A DNA stretch of 12,930 nt from Candidatus Parcubacteria bacterium (GTDB lineage Bacteria > Patescibacteriota > Patescibacteriia > Patescibacteriales > UBA12075). How positions within the stretch are numbered: the stretch's first letter is position 1; each line of letters begins with the position of its first letter. The stretch lies in NCBI GenBank assembly GCA_023139655.1, contig JAGLNE010000059.1, positions 1 to 12,930 on the forward strand, given 5' to 3'. Position numbers and translations under genes: made by a program. Below, one piece after another: positions 200-12,930 of this stretch. Below the pieces are notes generated by a model, which did not search any database, was not told the origin of the DNA, and saw only the letters and a list, made by a program, of their open reading frames with translations.

Positions 200-239
200 T
201 ATAATAGAATAAAAAAATGATTCCTTTTTAAAACTTTAT

Positions 240-327
240 CCGCGGATTTTACGCAGATATCTACGCAGATATTACGCGGATTCACACTCTGCGTTAAATC
301 CGCGTAGTGTCCGCGTAGCATCCGCGG
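240..327. repeat. Inverted pair of CGCGGA-heptamer arrays (4 + 4 units), gene-less
   Basis: The left half has four heptamers in one orientation: CCGCGGA (240-246), ACGCAGA (251-257), ACGCAGA (263-269) and ACGCGGA (274-280), with 4-5-nt spacers. After a 7-nt loop the right half has four in the opposite orientation: TCTGCGT (288-294), TCCGCGT (299-305), TCCGCGT (310-316) and TCCGCGG (321-327). The period is about 11 bp and the outermost unit on each side is the CCGCGGA form. The block ends 2 nt before the stop codon of the 330-950 gene, and the RNA could fold into a long imperfect hairpin that may help terminate transcription. It has the same architecture as the arrays around the GxxExxY gene at 2122-2529, with no gene between the halves. 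Confidence 0.9.
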
Positions 328-2052: not shown

Positions 2053-2081
2053 ATTATACTAAATATTATAATAATTTTCAA
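2053..2081 (-). promoter_or_regulatory. Sigma70-like promoter for the thrombospondin-type gene
   Basis: On the minus strand a -35 box TTGAAA (plus 2076-2081) and a perfect -10 box TATAAT (plus 2053-2058) are separated by exactly 17 nt. Initiation would be near 2046, giving a leader of about 19 nt before the ATG at 2027. The -35 box lies only 5 bp from the outer edge of the inverted heptamer array at 2087, so the neighbouring unit sits just upstream of the promoter without breaking it. Confidence 0.7.
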
Positions 2082-2086
2082 TTGTT

Positions 2087-2131
2087 TATACCGCGGAATT
2101 AACGCGGACCCTACGCGGACCCTACGCGGAT
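2087..2131. repeat. Left inverted terminal array of GxxExxY unit 1 (4 heptamers, 11-bp period)
   Basis: From its outer end the array reads TATA, then CCGCGGA (2091-2097 region) and three ACGCGGA heptamers separated by exactly 4 nt each, ending in T. It matches the reverse complement of 2541-2585 at 37 of 45 positions by my count. All eight differences fall in the 4-nt spacers, and all four heptamers are identical. The array also supplies the last codons and the TAG stop of the GxxExxY gene. Confidence 0.92.
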
Positions 2132-2529
2132 GTGTTTTTTTCACGCGCGGTATCATACACAATGCGTTTTATTATTAGGCCTTTTGGTGAAAAGTTTATT
2201 AAGAAACCTAATTTATACTGCGAGCCTCTTAAATATTTCCAAAACTGGTCTATATCCCCCTTTGACATAAGGGGCTTGCATTTTAATTCTATGATTATTT
2301 TCTTTTCTACAATTATATCCGGGATATAAATGCCCACTTTTTCATTTTTAAAATAAATATTAATTCTTTTTTGGGTTTCAATATTTAGCTTCTTACTTCT
2401 TAATGCGATCTGAACCGCCCGATCTATTACCTTTTCTTTAAACGCGCCGCCAAATTCATTCCATACCTCAAAACAAGCACCTCTTATTAGATATGATTCT
2501 TGCTCATATAATAATTTACCCTCCTTCAT
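2122..2529 (-). CDS. GxxExxY family protein (PD-(D/E)XK nuclease-like fold), variant motif
   Basis: A 135-residue protein of the GxxExxY / PDDEXK_3 type, whose function is unestablished; the fold is nuclease-like. The family's name motif is degenerate here: residues 29-35 read A-F-K-E-K-V-I, keeping only the Glu. The putative PD-(D/E)XK core is intact: PD at 70-71 (IYIPDIIVEKK), then E81-x-K83 in IIIELKCK, followed by the usual 'YKLGFLINFS' strand near 105-114. The ATG at 2527-2529 gives the expected N-terminus (MKEGKLLYEQ). A GGAGG lies inside the first codons rather than upstream. The final residues and TAG stop are encoded by the left heptamer array, and the right array starts 12 nt before the start codon. 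Distribution probably reflects mobility. This looks like a different subfamily from the copy at 7140-7550. Confidence 0.88.
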   Translation of the reverse strand: MKEGKLLYEQESYLIRGACFEVWNEFGGAFKEKVIDRAVQIALRSKKLNIETQKRINIYFKNEKVGIYIPDIIVEKKIIIELKCKPLMSKGDIDQFWKYLRGSQYKLGFLINFSPKGLIIKRIVYDTAREKNTSA

Positions 2530-2540
2530 GTATTTAAACT

Positions 2541-2585
2541 ATCCGCGTTAAATCCGCGTAGTGTCCGCGTACAATCCGCGGTATA
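2541..2585. repeat. Right inverted terminal array of GxxExxY unit 1
   Basis: Four heptamers in plus orientation (three TCCGCGT-type and an outermost TCCGCGG) with 4-nt spacers, ending in TATA at 2582-2585. It is the inverted partner of 2087-2131. It lies 11 bp from the stop codon of the LamG gene and 12 bp from the GxxExxY start, so it serves as both the 3' UTR of one gene and the leader of the other. Confidence 0.92.
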
Positions 2586-2596
2586 GGGTGAATACC

Positions 2597-5500
2597 CTAC
2601 TGCCCAAAACGTACAGCTCCCCCATTAAACTCCGTCTTAACTTGTTCACTAGTAAGCGCGTAATTAAATATTTTCACTTCATCAATCAAACCGCCAAATT
2701 CATAAGCGCCGTTTGTGGCCGCGCCAATAAATATTGGTTCACTTGGATTTGATCTAATCGTTCCCGAATATGAATTTGAATTGCCAGCTTCACCATTAAT
2801 ATAGGCTTTAAGCTCAGAGCCATCAAATACTCCCAACACATGCTGCCACTCACCGGCTACTAAGCCAATTTTTTCACCCGCTTCCGCGGTATTAATATCT
2901 GTTCTTATATGAAATTCTAGCTCGTCATTATTAGCGCTAAAAATAAATGAATCATCACCATCAAAACCGCCATCATACTTTGCAATTATTACACGTTGAG
3001 CGGCTAAAGAGCTGGGTTTTATCCAGGCTGATACTGTCATTTCATCAGTAATATCCAGCTCACTTGGACTCCCAAGATCAATCCAATCATCCTCGCCGTC
3101 ACCACCAAAACTCCCCGCACTATTTATTTTCCCGTCTTTACCATTATACCAAAAAGAGTTAGACGAGCTAGCGCAGGTACCGGTAGCTGTTACGCCAGCC
3201 GTACCAAGATGAAGTGTTCCATGTTCTTTGTTCTGTGTTGCGTCGTGTATTGTCCCGCCCGAGCATTCATCAAACTTCCAATGCCCGATCGGCTTACCTT
3301 TATTATAATCCCAAGCTATTTGCGCCGGGGTGCGGGCGTAATCGTAGATGTGAACTTGATCAATCAAGCCGTCAAATTTCCGAAGATCAAGATGACCTGC
3401 TCTTCCAACAGCCATAATATTATTATAGTCGCAATCACCTGAGGGCATGCTTAAATCACTATCCACTGAATTATCAACATATATATATGCTTCTGTACCA
3501 TTTCTAACTGCTGCTATATGATGCCATTCTCCATCATTCGCGGTATTAGTTGAGCCAACAGAGTCATTAGTACTGCCATCTGAAATGTGGAACTCTAATA
3601 TACCGCCAGCCTGTATGTGCAATCTTACCCCGCTGTCTCCTCCGGCAAAACTATCACCGGCTCTGTAGACTATAGCCCCTATAGAGGTTTGAGTGGTTTT
3701 TATCCAGGCGGAAAGAGTATAGTTGCCAGAGGCAAAATTAAAATTACCCACGTCCACATAATCACTACTCCCATCAAAACTCAAACCACTGCCATATTTC
3801 CCCCTGGTCCAGGTTGGAGAAGAAGCCGTGTTCACAAACACGCCGTCATTGCCTTGCCCGCTGGTGTCATAGGTCGTAGTGCCGGTTTTTTCATCAAACT
3901 TCAACTCCAAAACCGGCGGCGAGCAAGTGGCTGTGTCCCCCGGGATGCAGTATTCTGTGCCAGCCCCCGTCACAGTCGTGCCATCATCATCAGCGCTTGA
4001 CGCTTGACCCATTACCGCGGCCTGACCACTATTATAAAGCGTCTTAACCTCATCAACACTCAAAGCATAATTATAAATCTTTACTTCGTCTATTAAAACA
4101 TTACTATATTGCGCTAAATCAATATCTCCGCCAATCTCCAGATTTTCCGAGGAATCAGGAAAAGTCGCCGGAATAGTGCCAGTAAATGACAATGTCTGCT
4201 GTTTGCCGTTAATATATAATTTTAACCGATTGCTATTGCCGGTTTTATCGCCATCATAAATTACCTGCAGATTATACCAGGTGCTAGCTGACAAATCCGC
4301 GCCAACAGTAGCGCCGTAATTCGTGCAATCATCAGTCAGCCCGCTGGCCACGCATATCCGCAGTTCATCACTATTCGTATTATCTGATTTTATCAACACC
4401 GCGTTTTGATTGCCGCCCCATTGCGCGATAATCGGTTCGCTTGTCGCCAGTGTTTGCCAATTAATAAATTTAGAAATTGAAAATTGTTTGAAAATTGAAA
4501 ATTGAAAATTGAAAATTGAGTAGTCATCCACCCCATCAAACTCAATCGCCTGGCCAAACTTCCCATTCTTAGTCCACATCGCGCTAGTGGCTGTATTAGT
4601 CCCACCCGAACCGGGGTAAAGTGTACCAGTAAGGGCCTGTCCTGAGCCTGCCGAATGGACGGTTTCACCATAACCCTCATCAAAATGTAAATCCAAAACC
4701 GGGGATTTAATCGCCGGCGCACCGGCATTCATATCTTCTAGTATTTGTTTCTGGGTCCGGGCATAATTATAAATACGGACATCATCAATAAGTCCGTCAA
4801 AATACCGTTGGTCAGAATGACCCGCTCTTCCAACAGCCATTATATTATTATAGTCGCAATCACCTGAAGGCATGCTTAAATCACTGTCCACTGAATTATC
4901 AACATAGATATACGCTTCTGAACCATTTCTAACTGCCGCCACATGATGCCACTCCCCATTATTTACAGTGTCTGTTGATGCGATAAGATCATTAGTACTT
5001 CCGTCTGAAATATGTAAATGTACTTGTCCGTCAGCTTCTAATTCAAATCTAACTCCAGTATCTCCACCTGCGAAATTTATACCACCTCTCGCTAAGATAC
5101 TACTTATTGAAGTTTGAGTGGTTTTTATCCATGCTGAAAGAGTATAGTCGCCAGAGGCAAAATTAAAATTACCAGCATCCACATAATCACTACCCCCATC
5201 AAAACTCAAAGCACTGCCATATTTCCCCCTCGCCCAGGTCGCCCCGCTAATCGTCCCATCATTCCCACCCGCAAAAGATGAACTGGCAATAGAATCATAA
5301 GCCGTCGTCCCGCTTTTTTCATCAAACTTCCAATGCGCCACCGGCCCGGGCGCCCATTCATATAATCTCCTGACCTCTGTTGGATTAAGCGCGCGATTGT
5401 AAATGCGGACTTCATCTATTTGGCCGTCCCAGGATAAATTTGAATCCGAATTTGCGCCAATATTAATATCAAAAGTTGAACTTCTGGTCATCCCCGTAAG

Positions 5501-7168
5501 GTCAACAACAGTATCGCCAAGCACTCCGTCAACATAAACACGAGCATCTACACCATTATAAACCCCGACGATATGATACCATTTATCAGGATGCCCAAAC
5601 GGAATACCGTCTGTAAAAGAGGCTGTGGCGGTTAAATCTGTCGTATAAGCAACAAAACTAATATCCTCGGTCGTAGTCCAATATAGCTCGAAGGTGTCAA
5701 TTCCACTTCCTTTTTTTGAAACTATCGTGCCTTGCTGGGTACTATCAGCATCATCAGCTTTAACCCAAGCACTGACTGAAAGTCCACTTTGCCCTTCTGT
5801 CATATTATCCAGATCGCCAAGATCTACATAGTCCGCGTCCTGATCAAACACCCCACCATTGCCATACTTCCCAGCCGTAGTAGAGGCGTCGCCATAATAA
5901 GTGCCGTCATTGCCATTACCGCTCGCGTCAACTGCTCCAGACGTGGTCGCGCTCTCATCCATCTGCCAATAGCCAACCAATCCGTCGCTCATCCATTTAT
6001 CCGAAGTTCCCCCAAACGAAGCCGACACGCCATGCGTTGAACCCATTCCGGCCAACCCGGCATTATAATCCTGTCTTATCTGATCCGCGGTGCGGGCATA
6101 AGGATAAATTTTCACTTCGTCTATGAAGCCGTTAAAGTATTCAGTGTCTCCTTGCCTAGCGCCGATGCGATAATCATCTGTATTAGTAACTGACCCGTGG
6201 ACAATGTATGATTGCGTACCCTCTTGATTTCCATCAATATAAAGTGTAAACGCGCCAGCATCATCCTGATTGACTGATATATAATGCCACTTATTATCAT
6301 TAAGAAAAGAATCACTGTAAATATCCCCGCCGTCGGCATATGACTGGAAACGTATTTTCCCTGTACTTTTTCTTTCTATGTACCAACGATTTCCTGTATT
6401 CGCGGTTCTATATATTACTTGATCTGAATCAGTACCAACAAATTTTACCCAGGTAGATATAGAAAACTCTTCTTCGTCGCCAAAATTAAGGCTGGCGTCA
6501 TTAGTAATTTCCACATAATCTCCGCTCCCATCAAAATACAAACACTTACCGGAAATACACATACTTTCATCCTGCCAAGTCGCACCGGTGATGGTGCCGT
6601 CATTATTGTTCGCGCTAGAGTCTTGGGCGGTTGTTCCGTAGCCGGAGTCAAACGACCAGTAGCCGACCGGGCCAGGGCCGGTTTCTTCGGTTTGGATGGC
6701 GCCAATAGTATAATCACTGGCAACAGTGGTAAAATCCGTAGCGCTAAAACCATTTTCCGCGCTTGGATTACCATAATAAAAATAAACAGTTTGCGCGCCC
6801 GTGGGAAAAATATCAAAATTAATATGAATAATATTAGTATCAGTCTGGCAGCCAGAAACAATATAATATGGCAAAGCCTGACCATTTTCTTTAATAAAAC
6901 GAAAATCCCCGCAGTCAGACTGCATGCTGGTGCTGGCAGTGTCTGTATCAAGCGTTACAATAATATAAACATCAGTTTCCTCACTGGTATTATTGGTAAC
7001 CGGAATTACCTGGCGATAATTCCAGGAATCGTTCCACCAGGTGGCTTTTATTTCTTTTGGATTATTTAAAAATATAAAACCAAATAACAAAACAATAATA
7101 AATAAAATCATATAAATCTTATGAATCCCTGCCAAAAATTTACATTGTAATATTTTTTTCAATCTCAT
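2597..7168 (-). CDS. Giant secreted DUF2341 / six-LamG-domain protein
   Basis: A 1523-residue exported protein, probably a surface adhesin or glycan-binding protein; LamG domains are concanavalin-like beta-sandwiches. Order by position: signal/transmembrane segment (MILFIIVLLFGF, near 7075-7111); DUF2341 starting TWWNDSWNYRQ (about 6720-7050); then six LamG units at about 6060-6680, 5355-5990, 4725-5350, 4015-4710, 3300-3930 and 2597-3300. Each opens with a 'GHWKFDE'-like strand and ends with '(F)DGLIDEVKIYNYAR'. Units 3 and 5 are nearly identical in long stretches. The C-terminus (GGAVRFGQ) has no anchor. The ATG at 7166-7168 (MRLKKIL) is chosen because it gives a basic n-region. The frame is open to a TTG at 7210, inside the GxxExxY gene, and an ATG at 7111 is also possible. 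The start overlaps GxxExxY unit 2 by 29 nt. Two dispersed repeats are in frame inside unit 4. Confidence 0.88.
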   Translation of the reverse strand: MRLKKILQCKFLAGIHKIYMILFIIVLLFGFIFLNNPKEIKATWWNDSWNYRQVIPVTNNTSEETDVYIIVTLDTDTASTSMQSDCGDFRFIKENGQALPYYIVSGCQTDTNIIHINFDIFPTGAQTVYFYYGNPSAENGFSATDFTTVASDYTIGAIQTEETGPGPVGYWSFDSGYGTTAQDSSANNNDGTITGATWQDESMCISGKCLYFDGSGDYVEITNDASLNFGDEEEFSISTWVKFVGTDSDQVIYRTANTGNRWYIERKSTGKIRFQSYADGGDIYSDSFLNDNKWHYISVNQDDAGAFTLYIDGNQEGTQSYIVHGSVTNTDDYRIGARQGDTEYFNGFIDEVKIYPYARTADQIRQDYNAGLAGMGSTHGVSASFGGTSDKWMSDGLVGYWQMDESATTSGAVDASGNGNDGTYYGDASTTAGKYGNGGVFDQDADYVDLGDLDNMTEGQSGLSVSAWVKADDADSTQQGTIVSKKGSGIDTFELYWTTTEDISFVAYTTDLTATASFTDGIPFGHPDKWYHIVGVYNGVDARVYVDGVLGDTVVDLTGMTRSSTFDINIGANSDSNLSWDGQIDEVRIYNRALNPTEVRRLYEWAPGPVAHWKFDEKSGTTAYDSIASSSFAGGNDGTISGATWARGKYGSALSFDGGSDYVDAGNFNFASGDYTLSAWIKTTQTSISSILARGGINFAGGDTGVRFELEADGQVHLHISDGSTNDLIASTDTVNNGEWHHVAAVRNGSEAYIYVDNSVDSDLSMPSGDCDYNNIMAVGRAGHSDQRYFDGLIDDVRIYNYARTQKQILEDMNAGAPAIKSPVLDLHFDEGYGETVHSAGSGQALTGTLYPGSGGTNTATSAMWTKNGKFGQAIEFDGVDDYSIFNFQFSIFKQFSISKFINWQTLATSEPIIAQWGGNQNAVLIKSDNTNSDELRICVASGLTDDCTNYGATVGADLSASTWYNLQVIYDGDKTGNSNRLKLYINGKQQTLSFTGTIPATFPDSSENLEIGGDIDLAQYSNVLIDEVKIYNYALSVDEVKTLYNSGQAAVMGQASSADDDGTTVTGAGTEYCIPGDTATCSPPVLELKFDEKTGTTTYDTSGQGNDGVFVNTASSPTWTRGKYGSGLSFDGSSDYVDVGNFNFASGNYTLSAWIKTTQTSIGAIVYRAGDSFAGGDSGVRLHIQAGGILEFHISDGSTNDSVGSTNTANDGEWHHIAAVRNGTEAYIYVDNSVDSDLSMPSGDCDYNNIMAVGRAGHLDLRKFDGLIDQVHIYDYARTPAQIAWDYNKGKPIGHWKFDECSGGTIHDATQNKEHGTLHLGTAGVTATGTCASSSNSFWYNGKDGKINSAGSFGGDGEDDWIDLGSPSELDITDEMTVSAWIKPSSLAAQRVIIAKYDGGFDGDDSFIFSANNDELEFHIRTDINTAEAGEKIGLVAGEWQHVLGVFDGSELKAYINGEAGNSNSYSGTIRSNPSEPIFIGAATNGAYEFGGLIDEVKIFNYALTSEQVKTEFNGGAVRFGQ
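4473..4519. repeat. AAAATTG heptamer array inside the LamG gene
   Basis: On the plus strand: two AAATTG-type units, a TTTG spacer and four AAAATTG units in tandem. On the coding strand it is in frame and reads SIFNFQFSIFKQFSI. The same layout with only a few base differences occurs at 9863-9907 in the other giant gene. It falls in LamG unit 4 just after 'EFDGVDDY', where the other units continue directly into a beta strand, so it is most likely an insertion. Confidence 0.9.
4634..4655. repeat. Dispersed GCAGGCT/GGACAGGC-type repeat, in frame
   Basis: The plus strand reads GGCCTGTCCTGAGCCTGCCG and on. It is translated as part of 'HSAGSGQALTG' in LamG unit 4, at a point where the sister LamG units have a short 'DSSGNGNDG' turn. 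A related but broken version occurs at about 8618-8661. I recall such sequences as common intergenic repeats; the match is by memory only. Confidence 0.6.
7107..7132. repeat. Left inverted terminal repeat of GxxExxY unit 2
   Basis: A 26-bp sequence (ATCATATAAATC... ...CCCTGC) that matches the reverse complement of 7561-7586 at 24 of 26 positions. It lies just after the GxxExxY stop codon and is simultaneously translated as 'AGIHKIYMI' at the start of the giant LamG protein. Confidence 0.9.
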
Positions 7169-7550
7169 ACTTATTTTGTAATCTTCTAATCTCAACCTCG
7201 TCATTCCCAAAATTTATTAATAACCCAACTAAAATTTTAGTTAACCTTAAATATGATACTACTTGAGCTACATAAACACCCGGCATAATGCCCTTGACGG
7301 CTTTTAATTCAATAATTACCTTATCTTCTACTAATATATCCAGACGATGTTCGCCGATCAATTGATCATCAAACATTATCCGATATAATTTCTGCGCTTC
7401 AACTTTCAATCCTCTTTTTCTTAAAGCAATAACTAAAGCTTTCTCATAAACGCTTTCTATAAACCCCGGTCCAAGGCGATTATATACTTCATAAACCGCA
7501 CTGATTATTTTTTCGGTTATATCAGAGTGGGGATATTGTTCATTATCCAT
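7140..7550 (-). CDS. GxxExxY family protein (PD-(D/E)XK nuclease-like fold), canonical motif
   Basis: A 136-residue protein with the canonical motif G29-F-I-E32-S-V-Y35 in 'RLGPGFIESVYEKAL'. The nuclease-like core is D71 (RLDILVEDK) and E81-x-K83 (IIELKAV), followed by the 'ILVGLLINFG' strand (about 106-115). Key residues sit at exactly the same positions as in the 2122-2529 protein, although the rest differs widely. The biochemical role of this family is not established to my knowledge. The ATG at 7548-7550 overlaps the end of the truncated DUF2341 frame, and there is no Shine-Dalgarno; the AT-rich right terminal repeat (7561-7586) lies 10 nt upstream and may contribute promoter elements. 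The 3' end overlaps the chosen start of the LamG gene by 29 nt. Confidence 0.92.
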   Translation of the reverse strand: MDNEQYPHSDITEKIISAVYEVYNRLGPGFIESVYEKALVIALRKRGLKVEAQKLYRIMFDDQLIGEHRLDILVEDKVIIELKAVKGIMPGVYVAQVVSYLRLTKILVGLLINFGNDEVEIRRLQNKYEIEKNITM

Positions 7551-7776
7551 ATTTTTTATAGCAGGGATTTATATGATTTATATGATCCAAAACCGGAAAA
7601 TTCTCCAAATCCCCGGCCACTTGCGCGTGGTTGATGACTAGGGCTTTGCGGTAATTCCACGCGTCATTATACCAACCGGCTACTGCTATTTGCGGATTAT
7701 TAAATATCAAAAAACCAATACCGATTATCAGTATCATTAATAGCGCTAATAAAATTATTTTAAATTTTTTTGACAT
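7543..7776 (-). pseudogene. Truncated DUF2341 gene (signal peptide and first ~30 residues only)
   Basis: A 77-codon stump. It has a basic start (MSKKFK), a hydrophobic segment (about 7-25), then 'AGWYNDAWNYRKALVINH' and 'GDLENFPVL', the normal beginning of a secreted DUF2341 protein. The family sequence stops at codon 63, exactly where the right terminal repeat of GxxExxY unit 2 begins. The last 14 codons (DHINHINPCYKKYG) come from that repeat and leader. The stump is homologous to the N-terminus of the LamG protein downstream (TWWNDSWNYRQ), so two similar exported genes probably stood in tandem, or one was rearranged. The ATG at 7774-7776 is chosen over an upstream TTG at 7857 because it puts the basic n-region first. 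It is unlikely to make a functional product. Confidence 0.75.
7561..7586. repeat. Right inverted terminal repeat of GxxExxY unit 2
   Basis: The inverted partner of 7107-7132 (24 of 26 matches), built from two 9-bp ATCATATAA units and an ATCCCTGC end on the minus strand. It is the precise point where homology of the DUF2341 stump to its family ends. Confidence 0.9.
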
Positions 7777-7803
7777 TTTGATTTTTTCATTTAATTCGCA
7801 TGT

Positions 7804-7842
7804 GCCGCATTCGTAGTGCGGCTTTTTTCCGTTAGGAAAAAA
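7804..7842. repeat. Two adjacent hairpins 3' of the transposase gene
   Basis: The first is a GC-rich stem GCCGCA (7804-7809) / TGCGGC (7817-7822) with loop TTCGTAG, followed on the plus strand by six T's. The second is a perfect 8-bp stem TTTTTTCC (7823-7830) / GGAAAAAA (7835-7842) with loop GTTA. Read on the plus strand, the first looks like an intrinsic terminator, but no plus-strand gene leads into it. Placed 6 bp after the Y1 transposase stop codon, the GC hairpin could instead be a REP-like sequence of the kind these transposases act on. This is inference. Confidence 0.5.
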
Positions 7843-8159
7843 TAACGTTACATCCAAATATCATTCCTATTATTCCTATCCCTATCCCATTTTTTGGGAT
7901 TATTTTTTATATACGCCCGAATATTATTTAATGATTTTTCATTGCGGATTATATGGTCATAAAATCGGATTTGCCAGGTAAAAACGCCCTGCCAGGGCGT
8001 ATCCACATCCCGGCGAATCATAATTGTACATTGACGTTTAAATTGATTAATTATTACCCCCAATGTACCTGGTTTCCATTGGGGGTTATGTCCGCCGGAT
8101 TTTTTGGTTGTTTTATTTGTGTTCATGGTATTTTTGTATTTTGTTTGGTTACCCACCAC

Positions 8160-8202
8160 GTCCGCGGTAGAGACGCCCAAATTGGGCGTCTCTACCGCGG
8201 AC
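8160..8202. repeat. 43-bp perfect palindrome inside the transposase gene
   Basis: Two 21-bp arms (GTCCGCGGTAGAGACGCCCAA and its exact inverse) around a single central A. It is in frame on the minus strand (ASAVETPNLGVSTAD) and falls in the variable loop between the HUH motif and 'LGVIINQFK'. The opposite strand reads almost the same peptide in an open frame, which explains the plus-strand ORF there. In single-stranded DNA or RNA it would form a very stable hairpin. Confidence 0.93.
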
Positions 8203-8371
8203 GCGTCATTCCCCACGGACGCGACAAAATCATTTTTTATAAATTTACCACCGTTCGTGGCATTTTCCCCGGTACCATTATCAATTTTCAATATCCCATG
8301 TACATGATTTGGCATCACAATATATTCGTCCAATTTAACAAATGAAAAATGTTTCGGAATTTCCTGCCAAT

Positions 8372-8689: not shown

Positions 8690-11600
8690 CTATCTCGCGC
8701 AACGGAATCCTATAGTTGACGTCGCCTCTATCGGCGAATATGAAAGATCAAGGTCAAACAGGGCTGACTGACCGCGGACAAAACCGGATAAATAACTGGC
8801 AGTAGAAGAAGCCGTGATTGTTTTAATCCGACCAATACCATTTTCACTATTATAATAATACGGCGGATTTATATTAAAGCCTTTATAATCCAATACTTCG
8901 TAATATTCATACCAAAGTCCGCAATTACCACTATTTTCCTCCCCTTGCCAAGGGGAGGTGCCGCAGGCGGAGGGGTCAACCGCAATCGCTCCGGCCCGGG
9001 TAATGATCTGATCCGTCCATTCAGCAACCCCGCCCACAAAATCATATATTACATTATCATTACTTAACACAAACGCAACCCCGGTACTTGCTACTCCCTC
9101 TCCTTGCGAAGGAGAGGGTTGGGGTGAGGTAGCCAACTGTAATCCATCGCTAATATCATCACTATCATTATCACTAACCCTGATAATATTCTCCGCGATA
9201 GTCAACCATTCATTCTCACTAACCAAATGATATCCATCGCCCAATTCCTGGCAGGCCAACATCGCCTCCCCTTGTGATATGTTAGTCCACACCAAAGACG
9301 AAGAACCGATCCGCGTACCATCCGCGTAGTCATCCGCGTCAATTTCCGCGTGGAGGCTCGCCTCGCGAGCTGACACACAGAAACCAGGTAGTGTACCATA
9401 TTTAGATGACCCAGGTACCCACATGTAGCCGACTGCACAATACCCTTCAAATGCCCCAGCCACAACTTTACCCTCTATACCCATATCACCCATTGTTTCA
9501 TCAACCGCATCGTCTAAAGCAGATCCGCAAGCCCCGCCGGAGCAAACCAGGAGCCGTCCATCTACCTGCATCTCACCAACTACCGAGACCCGGCCCGTAT
9601 CCGCTATATTTACGATTGATACACCGCCGGCCTGGAAGTCAGCCACATCTCCACTACCGATCTGATTTACTACAAAGGCGGCGATCTCGGTCGTAGTTGC
9701 CGTAACGATCTCCACCACTGCCACGTCCGGTGTAGAAGTAGCCGTAGTAGTGCTAATCTCCGCAACACTTACTCGTCCTAATTTAAGATTACCATCATCC
9801 GTAATAATTATTGACGTAGAAGAAGCCGAATCACTGCCCAGAATTACTAATTGATCATTGATAATTGATAATTGTTTGGAAATTGAAAATTGAAAATTGA
9901 AAATTGAATCTATATTATTTTCCATGGCTGTCATCCGCGCCAGCACATCATCCACGCTAGCTGCTAAAGTAATGAGCTGAGCATCAACCGCGTCAAATCC
10001 AACTGTCAGCCGTTCGTCAACTGCGGCGTTCAATAAAGCGATCTCCTCATCCACGATCGGCTGGATTTCCTCGTCCAGATCCAGATTATCCACGGCTTGA
10101 GCGATTAGAATTTGCACTTCATCTTCTATTTCCATAGACGCTATTCTGTCTGTAATTCTACTCTCTACCATGTCTACGGTCAGGCTCTTGTTCCGCCGTG
10201 AAATTAACACGTTTATTATGTCTTTACCGCTGGCCAGAGATTCAAGCGCTACGCCCACGGTAGAGTCGCCCGGGTCAGCGCGCATTACATATCCCATAGA
10301 GCTGGAAGCGCTGGTTAGAGAATCACCCGGCCGGATCGGCCCGTTCTCGGCCGAAACCTTGGCCGGAACCTGGCCCAGCATACCGATTATCTTATAATGC
10401 TCATTATCCCTATATCCCTCTTTATTATTACCGATTATTGCCGGTCGGGTGGAAACTATGCCCATTACATTGCTGTCCGCGCCTCGCTCGCACCGCGCCA
10501 CCGCGCTGTCGCGGGTAATATCTACACAGACCACGTCGCCGGCTTCCAAGCCGGTATTGTCTGTATAAAAATACTCGGCATAATCAGCGCCAGCGGTTAG
10601 CCAACCCATACTGGCATTACCCTGCCCACCAATATCCAAAGCATAGCTAGGGCTGGTAGTAGTGCCAATACCGATATTACCGCTGGAAAGCATAGTAAAG
10701 GCCGTGGATGAGCCGATCGTAGAACTGGTTCCTATTTGGAAAGCATCATTAGTGTCGTCAATCGCCAAATGAAAATCTATCTGATTGCCGTCCAAAACTA
10801 TGCCCGCGTCTGATTCTGAAGTATCGCCAATGGATAGTATTGAATCGCCGGTACCGGAAGTGTCTATGGTCATTTCGCCATCCGCCGCGACTGTAAAATT
10901 AACATAATTATTTTCGTCATAAGCCAGCCGCAGTTGAGAATCAGTATCTGACATAACAGTCAAAGTAGTGGCTGGTGTAGTCGTGCCAATACCTAAGCGC
11001 GTATTGGTATTATCCCAGGTAAGTAGCGCCCCAGTCGTACCGGTAGCAGTCGTGCCGTCAGCCGCGTAATAGGTTAGCGAACCCTCGCCGCCCCAATTAA
11101 GCGTTCCATCACCACTGCCCGAACCAATCCCGGCCCAGGAACCGCCTGAATTTTTATATTCCATAGTTCCTGAATTATCCCGAATGCCATAGCCGTCTGC
11201 TGAAGTGGTGGCATAACCAAAATACATACTTCTGTCTGTTCCTGATAATAATAAATTGCCATATACACTAAGCTCTGCTACCGGGGTAGTAGTGCCAATG
11301 CCAACATAACCATTAGAATTTACAGTTAATTGATCATTACCGCCAGTACGCAAAGCAAGTTTATCAGCTGACACAAAACGTAAACCAGTGTCAGAATCGT
11401 CGGTAGAATAGAAAGCATCATTGGCATAAATATTACTAGAATCAAAAGCGTGTTGTAAAGCACCGGTAATGGCAACGCCAATAACATTATCCGCGTACCG
11501 ATAAAATCCCATGTCTGTATCTCCAGAAAAACTAATGCTAGGCGCTCCAGAAGTTCCGTCAGATATCAATATTTGACCGGCAGTATTTATTTGTAAACTA

Positions 11601-12930
11601 GAAGTCGCGGTTAAAGTATCACCATAACCGGCATAATATGGTATCCAGCCGGGAGTTCCGGACCCGACTGTGCCGGAGCCACCGTCGCCCAAACCAAGCG
11701 TGGAAGTCGCTACCAAATCGTATGAACCATCGGCTTGGCCTAATAACATCTGACCATAGCTTGGGGCTGTGCTGGTGCCGGTGCCACCGTAATATATTGC
11801 AAGTGTTGTGGTTGAATCATAGCTGCCAACACCGGAGCGGACCATTAGACCATCAGAAATGAAATCAGCGTCAACTATAAATGTACTTGTTGAAACCCAG
11901 TCCACGCCAGAACCGGTGGTCATTAGGATATTGCCCGCGTTGCCGGCTGAATAATTATTGTCATATATTCCACCGGTTAATATAATGTCGCCGGCTATAG
12001 TTAATTCGTAGGATGGGGTGGTAGTGCCGATGCCCACATTTCCGCTCTGCGCTACATGGAAAAGCGGTGCGCCGGTTGAAGAAGCAATGCTAAATGGCGA
12101 TTCGCCAGCTATGCCCTGTATAGATAATGTCGTGAGTGGAGAAGAAGTGCCGACCCCGACCCGGTCAGTGAAAGCATTAATGTAGAGTGTATCCGCTATC
12201 GTGGTTGTGCCCACCAGAACCGCCATGTCATCAATCACTACATCACCTGAATTAGCCGCGCTTAAGGTTAAGTCAAGATTTTCCCAGGCCGAGTCAGTGC
12301 GTACATAACCCGGACCCTCAAAATTAATACTCGCGGCCGTGTTATTGGTAAAGTTAAGGTCATAGGCCATGCTAACATCCCCGGCCGAGCCAAATGTAAC
12401 CGGGTTATTAAAAGTAGTGTTCGCGGCCGTGATCGTTACTACATCCGTACCATTATGATTTAGATTAAGTAGCTGTCCGTCCCCGTCCACGCGGATAGAC
12501 AAGCCGCCGCCGCTTGTTGCCGTGGATGAAGCATTATAAATATAAGCTAAATAATCATTAGTGTCATTATCATAAACGGTTAACTGATAATCCGGCGAGG
12601 TAGTGCCAATGCCGATTTTACCGCTGGTATCAATATAAATTGCTGAAGTGGCAGTTAAATTATTTGAATAATCACTATAGTACGGAATCCAACCGGTTGT
12701 ACCGGAAGCAATCGTACCGGTGTAAAGACCCAGGCTGGATGTTCCGGTTAAAGCATAAGTGCCGTCAGCCTGACCGAGCAATAATTGTCCGTAGTTAGGG
12801 GCAGTAGATAAACCGGTTCCGCCATAACTGATCATCAAGGTTGAAGTACTGGTATATGCTCCAGCCGCAGAGCGAACCATTAACCCGTCAGAAGTGAAAT
12901 CAGCATCAACTATAAATGTGCTGGTTGAGA
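8690..12930 (-). CDS. Giant surface protein: tail-fibre-like repeats, DYAEYF domain, C-terminal FGE/C-type-lectin-like module (5' end off window)
   Basis: The last 1412 codons of a larger protein; the frame is open to the window edge, so the ATG at 12880 is internal. The N-terminal two thirds (about 10620-12930) are beta-rich repeats with at least six 'GIGTTTP'-type motifs, including two copies of a 345-residue block (STFIVDADFxSDGLMVRS). About 10190-10610 is a 'GADYAEYFYTD...LEAGDVVCVD' domain resembling those after phage-tail-like repeats (Peptidase_G2-like, tentative). Then a helical stretch (9930-10190), a Thr/Val-rich linker, and at 8690-9450 an FGE-sulfatase-like module: 'YMWVPGSSKYGTLPGFC', 'YHLVSENEWLTIA', 'VIYDFVGGVAEWTD' and terminal GFRCAR. 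FGE catalytic cysteines are not evident, so a binding rather than enzymatic role is likely. Five repeat inserts lie in the C-terminal 420 residues. Confidence 0.88.
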   Translation of the reverse strand, partial: STSTFIVDADFTSDGLMVRSAAGAYTSTSTLMISYGGTGLSTAPNYGQLLLGQADGTYALTGTSSLGLYTGTIASGTTGWIPYYSDYSNNLTATSAIYIDTSGKIGIGTTSPDYQLTVYDNDTNDYLAYIYNASSTATSGGGLSIRVDGDGQLLNLNHNGTDVVTITAANTTFNNPVTFGSAGDVSMAYDLNFTNNTAASINFEGPGYVRTDSAWENLDLTLSAANSGDVVIDDMAVLVGTTTIADTLYINAFTDRVGVGTSSPLTTLSIQGIAGESPFSIASSTGAPLFHVAQSGNVGIGTTTPSYELTIAGDIILTGGIYDNNYSAGNAGNILMTTGSGVDWVSTSTFIVDADFISDGLMVRSGVGSYDSTTTLAIYYGGTGTSTAPSYGQMLLGQADGSYDLVATSTLGLGDGGSGTVGSGTPGWIPYYAGYGDTLTATSSLQINTAGQILISDGTSGAPSISFSGDTDMGFYRYADNVIGVAITGALQHAFDSSNIYANDAFYSTDDSDTGLRFVSADKLALRTGGNDQLTVNSNGYVGIGTTTPVAELSVYGNLLLSGTDRSMYFGYATTSADGYGIRDNSGTMEYKNSGGSWAGIGSGSGDGTLNWGGEGSLTYYAADGTTATGTTGALLTWDNTNTRLGIGTTTPATTLTVMSDTDSQLRLAYDENNYVNFTVAADGEMTIDTSGTGDSILSIGDTSESDAGIVLDGNQIDFHLAIDDTNDAFQIGTSSTIGSSTAFTMLSSGNIGIGTTTSPSYALDIGGQGNASMGWLTAGADYAEYFYTDNTGLEAGDVVCVDITRDSAVARCERGADSNVMGIVSTRPAIIGNNKEGYRDNEHYKIIGMLGQVPAKVSAENGPIRPGDSLTSASSSMGYVMRADPGDSTVGVALESLASGKDIINVLISRRNKSLTVDMVESRITDRIASMEIEDEVQILIAQAVDNLDLDEEIQPIVDEEIALLNAAVDERLTVGFDAVDAQLITLAASVDDVLARMTAMENNIDSIFNFQFSISKQLSIINDQLVILGSDSASSTSIIITDDGNLKLGRVSVAEISTTTATSTPDVAVVEIVTATTTEIAAFVVNQIGSGDVADFQAGGVSIVNIADTGRVSVVGEMQVDGRLLVCSGGACGSALDDAVDETMGDMGIEGKVVAGAFEGYCAVGYMWVPGSSKYGTLPGFCVSAREASLHAEIDADDYADGTRIGSSSLVWTNISQGEAMLACQELGDGYHLVSENEWLTIAENIIRVSDNDSDDISDGLQLATSPQPSPSQGEGVASTGVAFVLSNDNVIYDFVGGVAEWTDQIITRAGAIAVDPSACGTSPWQGEENSGNCGLWYEYYEVLDYKGFNINPPYYYNSENGIGRIKTITASSTASYLSGFVRGQSALFDLDLSYSPIEATSTIGFRCAR
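8938..8976. repeat. Palindromic insert CCTCCCCTT-GCC-AAGGGGAGG, in frame in the FGE module
   Basis: Nine-bp inverted arms (8938-8946 and 8950-8958) around GCC, followed by a purine-rich tail (GCGGAGGGGT). It is translated as 'DPSACGTSPWQGEE' between 'AIAV' and 'NSGNCGLWYE' of the FGE-like module, where a loop would be expected. It is similar in design to the repeat at 9094-9130. Confidence 0.82.
9094..9130. repeat. Palindromic insert CCCTCTCCTT-GCG-AAGGAGAGGG, in frame
   Basis: Ten-bp inverted arms (9096-9105, 9109-9118) around GCG, then TTGGGGTGAGGT. It reads as 'LATSPQPSPSQGEGVAST' in the surface protein, between 'DGLQ' and 'FVLSNDNVIYDF'. This type of repeat ('TSPQPSP.GEG' when translated) is familiar from bacterial intergenic DNA, from memory. 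Confidence 0.85.
9310..9351. repeat. Half-array of four TCCGCGT heptamers, in frame in the surface gene
   Basis: TCCGCGT at 9310-9316, 9321-9327, 9333-9339 and 9345-9351, with 4-, 5- and 5-nt spacers. It has the same heptamer and the same count as each arm of the arrays at 240-327 and around GxxExxY unit 1, but no inverted partner is nearby. It is translated as 'HAEIDADDYADGTRIG' in the FGE-like module, in a loop after 'GFCVSAREAS'. Confidence 0.9.
9356..9370. repeat. Short palindrome GCTCGC-CTC-GCGAGC next to the heptamer half-array
   Basis: Six-bp inverted arms around CTC, directly beside the TCCGCGT half-array, translated as part of 'SAREASL'. It may be a further repeat insert, although the family also has an 'EAS'-like sequence here, so part of it could be native. 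Confidence 0.5.
9863..9907. repeat. AAAATTG heptamer array inside the surface gene
   Basis: The same layout as 4473-4519: two ATAATTG-type units, TTTG, then GAAATTG and three AAAATTG units. On the coding strand it reads SIFNFQFSISKQLSI in the linker between the helical stretch and the Thr/Val-rich region. Orientation and reading phase match the LamG gene copy. Confidence 0.9.

Follow-up and report, generated by a model that had tools for sequence, protein, structure and literature searches.

Inverted heptamer arrays around GxxExxY genes: apparently a very small, so far undescribed kind of mobile element

The GxxExxY block and other features of the window

The window, that is, the whole 12,930-nt stretch of Candidatus Parcubacteria DNA analysed here, contains two GxxExxY genes, each between inverted arrays of short units, and one inverted pair of arrays without a gene (Table 1). 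For the block at 2087-2585, the first-pass annotation had described two 45-bp inverted arrays of four units each around a 135-codon GxxExxY gene, whose stop codon is supplied by the left array, and both points were confirmed. The inverted arms of 45 nt each (2087-2131 and 2541-2585) are 82% complementary with 409 nt between them, their four units start 11 bp apart in both arrays, and the TAG stop of the 135-aa gene (2124-2122) falls within the left array. A pattern of three YRCNRAY-N4 units with at most one mismatch had 6 matches in the window (0.05 expected), a number reached in 0 of 200 shuffles. The gene scored 93.6 bits against TIGR04256 (curated cut-off 35; 132.9 bits for the second GxxExxY gene of the window) and 95.9 bits against PF13366 (cut-off 22).

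The block had also been placed between a stop codon and a promoter. The first half of this statement stood, as the LamG gene has its stop codon (2597-2599) 11 nt beyond the end of the right array; the promoter was reduced to a sigma-70-like site directly by the left array (2081-2053, minus strand) with 11 of 12 consensus matches, such sites being no more frequent around the block than in shuffles (4 found vs. a mean of 3.2). A defence system was rejected as the identity of the locus because PADLOC gave no defence-system match for three window proteins.

Table 1. Array elements and neighbouring signals in the window
Position	Strand	Feature	Basis
239..327	.	Gene-less inverted pair (arms 241-280 and 288-326), unit kind as in the 2087-2585 block	Unit scan, fold
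2053..2081	-	Sigma-70-like site TTGAAA-17-TATAAT, adjoins left array	Consensus match only
2087..2131	-	Left arm, inverted: array of four TCCGCG units with a period of 11 bp	Unit scan and self-comparison
2122..2529	-	GxxExxY gene (TIGR04256 / PF13366 PDDEXK_3), 135 aa	Profile matches and conserved residues
2541..2585	+	Right inverted array, four TCCGCG units	Unit scan and self-comparison
7107..7138	-	Downstream arm of second element, units like ATCATATAAATC	Flank alignment
7140..7550	-	Second GxxExxY gene, different subfamily	Profile matches, tree
7555..7586	+	Upstream arm of second element	Flank alignment

The gene-less inverted pair (241-326) and the second GxxExxY gene (7140-7550) had both been missed by the first-pass annotation. 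The RNA fold of 236-331 has an energy of -49.3 kcal/mol (z -7.95), and in the orthologous gap of a genome of the same family (G004) the hairpin is absent, the gap measuring about 25 nt there and about 131 nt in the window. The same gap in another genome (G005; L308, G005:C16:163800-167500) holds a different inverted array with repeats of AATCAAT type by eye, as if such gaps were landing sites for repeats.

The inverted units that flank the second GxxExxY gene are of a kind other than TCCGCG. Matches resembling its arms number 12 in its own genome (itself included) and 4 in the sister genome, which does not imply the presence of the gene at each. This element lies between a short ORF and the LamG gene (7107-7857, minus strand); the short ORF, which has no Pfam match, resembles by eye the beginning of a surface protein of DUF2341 type, and the downstream arm provides a possible ATG start of the LamG gene. 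At 7848-8333 (minus strand) there is an ORF resembling a Y1/IS200-type transposase, with an MPNHVHGI motif and a Pfam score of 21.7 bits (cut-off 23), perhaps a RAYT remnant. A lone four-unit TCCGCG array, for which the unit scan gave no partner, was seen at 9310-9350 within the ORF 8690-12880.

The whole block has a second copy in its own genome (contig C73, 80% identity), where 26 further, shorter array-type matches, cross-matches of the window arms included, lie on 13 contigs. In a unit scan of fetched own-genome stretches, gene-less inverted pairs numbered nine, the window pair at 241-326 among them, and their loops measured about 7 to 62 bases; the scan also gave one irregularly ordered pair and six arrays for which it named no partner. 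A unit pattern search gave 23 matches, several of them overlapping in one array, and its reversed-pattern control 0. G034 (76%) and G016 (70%, with most of the left array missing), both from a different family of the same order, also contain most of the block. Repeated contig ends of G034 were discarded as candidate fresh copies because the common stretch extends into the flanking DNA. In G001, TCCGCG-type pairs are present, yet none of the three GxxExxY genes detected in this incomplete assembly carries that unit. Around 9500-12300 of the locus L036 (C73), intergenic gaps hold several different repeat families common to the sister genome.

Inverted arrays as a trait of GxxExxY genes and their match to the protein

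Most members of the GxxExxY family examined lie between inverted arrays. GxxExxY genes occurred, patchily, in 27 of the 59 genomes searched (own genome included). Arrays were scored as the best alignment of the 300 nt upstream with the reverse complement of the 300 nt downstream, with a threshold of 28. All matches above the cut-off were taken from the related genomes (63 rows, one without a flank, leaving 62 scorable), and 55 of the 62 reached 28 vs. 6 of the 345 intervals drawn at random from these loci. The seven rows below comprise a masked duplicate of the second window gene, a misplaced gene boundary (L114), two contig ends (L049 and L106) and three genes with scores of 22-25 (L071, L110 and L127). 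A control outlier of 556 in the first scoring of this set, for which masked bases were taken as the cause, was gone once N-containing intervals were dropped.

When named genomes were scanned with an alignment of 20 sequences, at least 510 relatives were found, and among the best 80 of these, 61 reached 28 and 19 fell below, vs. 2 of 280 control intervals; the 80 include members of Bacteroidota, Planctomycetota, Chloroflexota, Omnitrophota, Cloacimonadota, Spirochaetota, Nitrospirota and many Patescibacteria. Lack of enrichment over random genes had been named in the first-pass annotation as a ground for giving up its proposal, and enrichment was found in both sets. Two Vreelandella GxxExxY genes lacked arrays (scores 18 and 19). 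Flanks taken from different genes often match each other too, because their units are alike (95th percentile 31 in the related set and 28 in the cross-phylum set), and therefore the array score alone is no proof of a pair. A contig binned as Helarchaeota (Asgard archaeon; L139) encodes a GxxExxY protein 79% identical to that of the window, with arms of CGCGGAT/CGCTGAT type, through either lateral transfer or misbinning. Plasmid or phage cargo was rejected as an identity, since one GxxExxY protein (L163) matched just 5 plasmid records out of 72,556, and no phage record out of 50,697, in tblastn.

The units of the arms vary by gene (ACGCGGA, TGCGAAT, TACAAAT, TGCTAAT, CACAGAT, CACTGAT and others), and their general form, read toward the gene, is YRCNRAY. 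This form occurs 2.54 times per 120 nt of flank on the unit strand, 0.68 times on the opposite strand and 0.48 times in the background, and 106 of 140 rows (143 minus L114, L203 and one short-flank row, the second window gene being counted twice) have at least three units. The fourth position of the unit is variable even inside a single element in 71% of the 95 elements with at least four units. In nine arm pairs of the own genome, the third base of TCNGCG agrees between the arms in 12 of 36 cases vs. 15.4 expected, so that pairing alone is not what is kept; the unit sequence, rather than arm pairing, looks conserved, and the heptamer is a putative binding site.

A unit was found for 139 rows and was confident for 130 of them; over these 130, protein distance and unit distance are correlated (r 0.374, 0 of 2000 permutations; r 0.372 after GC correction). 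When units were permuted within genomes for 57 genes of the related genomes, the cross-genome r of 0.560 exceeded the maximum of 0.492 in 5000 permutations, and thus the arrays go with the gene and not with the host genome. Likewise, 47 genes have paralogues in their own genome, and in 37 of these cases the unit is more similar to that of the closest protein from a different genome than to the units of the paralogues. Gene and unit type are inherited together, and their common descent as a single unit would suffice to account for the match.

All of the 56 aligned proteins have the residues E32, D71, E81, K83, Q95 and Y99, which correspond to the PD-(D/E)XK set (D...ExK) plus QxxxY; this superfamily acts mostly on DNA. 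From these conserved catalytic residues and the unit-protein matching, we infer that the nuclease acts on the heptamers. Beyond PDDEXK_3, Pfam gave a weak similarity to phage endonuclease I in 17 of the 56 members (best E 5.3e-4; window protein 0.024), weak matches to Cas4 in 10 of 56 (best 0.006) and fewer matches to other nuclease families. A profile search of solved structures returned six matches, all insignificant (E 0.14 to 0.58), two of them to phage endonuclease I. Phage endonuclease I is a junction-cutting enzyme that cleaves branched DNA, an activity that would suit inverted arrays and that we take as a lead only. To our knowledge, the GxxExxY family is widespread and has no settled function; where GxxExxY is mentioned in the passages of PMC8934634, this is unrelated to such elements.

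Orthologous sites, movement and landing sites

In one related genus with three species, the flanks of 11 elements were joined without the element and searched in all three genomes. For seven of the 11 (L097, L098, L099, L102, L104, L109 and L113), at six sites, L102 and L109 having one in common, a sister-species alignment crosses the junction without the gene. Three of these six gene-less sites are not pristine: that of L113 keeps apparently part of one arm, and those of L097 and L099 contain 30-50 extra bases. The L071/L072 site is occupied in two species. At the L096 site, G035 has a four-helix-bundle gene, flanked by inverted arms as read from the alignment, and G045 an apparent remnant; L127 and L128 (query cut) were uninformative.

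The first-pass annotation had proposed that gene and arrays travel together, and had counted permanent occupancy of the locus in close relatives against this. The gene-less orthologous sites of the seven elements, in sister species of a related genus and not at the window block, support the proposal, and there is good evidence that gene and arrays move as one unit. None of the compared relatives offered an exact, fully alignable empty site for the block in the window; three genomes of the same family (G002, G004 and G005) retain the downstream gene with no adjacent GxxExxY gene, the LamG side not being conserved.

The L104 site exists in three states, with a full element in G045, an internal deletion of 408 bp that keeps both arrays and the start of the gene in G035, and no element in G017. 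The G035 allele is an internal-deletion derivative in place, and reads as a gene-less hairpin formed in this way. Some element sites are common to species or to an entire genus (L071/L072, Allomuricauda), and movement is therefore not frequent. Target-site duplications were not in excess across 71 elements (2.97 vs. 2.87, sd 0.11), the ends of which are uncertain by a few bases, and a suggestive 4-bp duplication at L102 was dropped for this reason.

Among the 77 well-bounded elements (arm score of at least 35 and enough clean flank), 76 occupy a gap between two ORFs, at median distances of 0 and 1 nt, and 67 of these 76 lie between co-oriented ORFs; the exception is L141, through which an ORF runs. 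In 8 of 140 rows the reading frame is open to either side, and these eight form a single clade (support 96/92). A single change on the tree accounts for them, and none of 500 shuffles needed so few; this tree of the 140 rows was built on few columns. Seven of the eight (L098, L140, L141, L142, L144, L149 and L151) are at one place in RecG, between DEQHRFG and PH-L-M-ATPIPR, a common position within a gene that is seen for these seven and not for most elements. Four of the seven hosts were run against family models and all are RecG, three above the curated cut-off and L142 just under it. The eighth member, L146, has a probable glycosyltransferase as host (Pfam 25.5 bits, cut-off 27). Within L146:876-3458, two GxxExxY domains of different subfamilies, each with arms, and a gene-less hairpin are all in frame, and the hairpin (about 2916-3018) has the unit kind of one of the two elements.

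L098 and L151 have 78% identity in GxxExxY and 43% in RecG, and in the genus to which L098 belongs, two species have an uninterrupted recG; lateral entry at a single recG site is for these reasons the simplest reading. Over all seven, the identity matrices of GxxExxY and RecG show some agreement (r 0.456; 336 of 5040 permutations do as well), and vertical descent may therefore also contribute to the clade. The in-frame clade brings to mind the Rickettsia palindromic elements.

A candidate minimal mobile element and its alternatives

We favour, with a probability of roughly 0.6, a minimal mobile element with a PD-(D/E)XK nuclease that recognises its own arrays, resembling RAYT-REPIN systems with an unrelated enzyme. 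Such an element of about 0.5 kb would consist of one GxxExxY gene between two inverted arrays of a gene-specific heptamer (YRCNRAY), and would insert mostly into the gap between adjacent genes, with one clade entering genes in frame, chiefly at one recG site. The nuclease may bind its own arrays as duplex or as an extruded cruciform or hairpin and may cut both the element and the target, whereupon host repair would copy the element. Internal deletion would yield gene-less hairpins, which would persist dispersed in the genome in the manner of MITEs and REPINs. We see about an even chance that GxxExxY proteins at large are nucleases that each recognise their own version of a YRCNRAY heptamer array, and that they belong to an undescribed class of minimal mobile elements extending across phyla, with gene-less hairpins as non-autonomous offspring, a clade with stop-free arms homing in frame to recG, and a place in a larger class of array hairpins that also holds four-helix-bundle IVS genes. 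The widespread GxxExxY family would thereby gain a concrete, testable function, with a predicted DNA target for the protein of each of about 100 genes examined, and the recG insertions would represent a mobile unit readable in frame with its host gene.

The layout is common to a second, unrelated small protein. Genes for four-helix-bundle proteins (TIGR02436, the IVS protein of 23S rRNA) are present in 43 of the 59 genomes, and 25 of 30 loci, the 30 being among the matches listed, have inverted arrays vs. 1 of 85 controls. By eye, the arrays at these loci are often contiguous 7-bp repeats (L250, G035:C44:17400-18800; L254-L283). Since two unrelated proteins share one gene-between-inverted-arrays layout, a role of the hairpin at the RNA or structural level remains the main rival: as in the 23S IVS, the RNA hairpin of the arrays would be processed by RNase III or by the protein itself, the insertion would be harmless and the protein would bind RNA. 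Besides the four-helix-bundle loci, the stable RNA fold in the window (z -7.95 at 236-331) and the position of 67 of 76 elements between co-oriented ORFs are in its favour, as is the 23S IVS itself, which passages of PMC4990558 describe as a stem-loop with an S23p ORF that is excised by RNase III. A match to rRNA, however, was found in none of the 70 loci scanned (of 80 named) and none in the window, the third base of the unit is unmatched between the arms, and the recG insertions can be read in frame without removal of RNA. The conserved nuclease set of a mostly DNA-acting superfamily also speaks against this account, which we consider unlikely.

Lower still we place the idea that the GxxExxY gene is a passive passenger of hairpins that owe their spread to a different enzyme, for instance a transposase of the IS200/RAYT type. 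The Y1-transposase-like ORF of the window (7848-8333), at 21.7 bits below the Pfam cut-off of 23, and the similar boxes occupied by four-helix-bundle genes instead of nucleases would agree with it, and REPIN hairpins, tied to RAYTs in passages of PMC3116915, offer a precedent. A third-party enzyme would leave unexplained, however, that the letters of the unit follow the GxxExxY protein within and across genomes, and the association is repeated over many phyla. An ordinary resident gene, with arrays serving as operators or terminators and patchiness arising from loss, is very improbable, since gene-less orthologous sites, many different sites per genome, gene-less copies and an in-frame insertion in a recG that is uninterrupted in two congeners weigh against it, even though certain sites are kept within a genus, as in Allomuricauda, and the left array contributes a stop codon.

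The mobile element favoured here differs from the closest known systems in that the enzyme of RAYT-REPIN systems, a location in rRNA, an excess of target-site duplications and an intron were all absent from what was scanned. With RAYT-REPIN systems it shares inverted short-unit doublets that are hairpin-capable and dispersed between genes, a cognate chromosomal gene and gene-less copies. The gene within the arrays, in contrast, is of the PD-(D/E)XK type (PF13366) and not a Y1/HUH transposase, the Y1-like ORF of the window lying outside the arrays, and the arms are heptamer arrays of YRCNRAY units. The 23S rRNA IVS is alike in its size of about 0.4-0.5 kb, one small ORF within inverted repeats, patchy occurrence and lateral movement, and relatives of its protein show the same layout outside rRNA in the genomes studied here; unlike it, the GxxExxY elements in the scanned loci are outside rRNA, encode a nuclease-like protein and have arms of repeated heptamers. 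In passages of PMC4990558 and PMC11270868, the IVS or four-helix-bundle proteins are known from rRNA insertions.

MITEs and other small non-autonomous elements are comparable in their short gene-less inverted-repeat copies, of which the L104 allele of G035 is one in-place internal-deletion derivative, whereas derivatives of classical IS differ from the 71 elements without a target-site duplication excess, and no known transposase family is present in the coding element. Homing endonuclease genes likewise place a nuclease gene in the element, and the recG clade at one in-frame site resembles them; most GxxExxY members, however, are intergenic and flanked by their own arrays, and no Rfam intron match was found in the window or in the 70 loci scanned. 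CRISPR-like and TIGR-Tas arrays were rejected as an identity, since TIGR arrays are described in passages of PMC12045711 as spacer-bearing guide arrays beside Nop-domain proteins.

A literature search that covered neither preprints nor most subscription journals found no description of such GxxExxY array elements. The TAACTGA heptamer repeats of Beggiatoaceae, Cyanobacteria and Bacteroidetes are dispersed and mostly intergenic, with lateral spread suspected, according to passages of PMC4679880; there they are direct repeats upstream of start codons, unlike inverted pairs round a gene, and these passages name no such cognate gene. Their author suggests that a repeat-binding protein is possibly the mobile part (passages of PMC4679880). 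The window also holds another dispersed repeat of about 80 bp (971-1076), which has many copies in its own and the sister genome and is apparently unrelated to the heptamer arrays.
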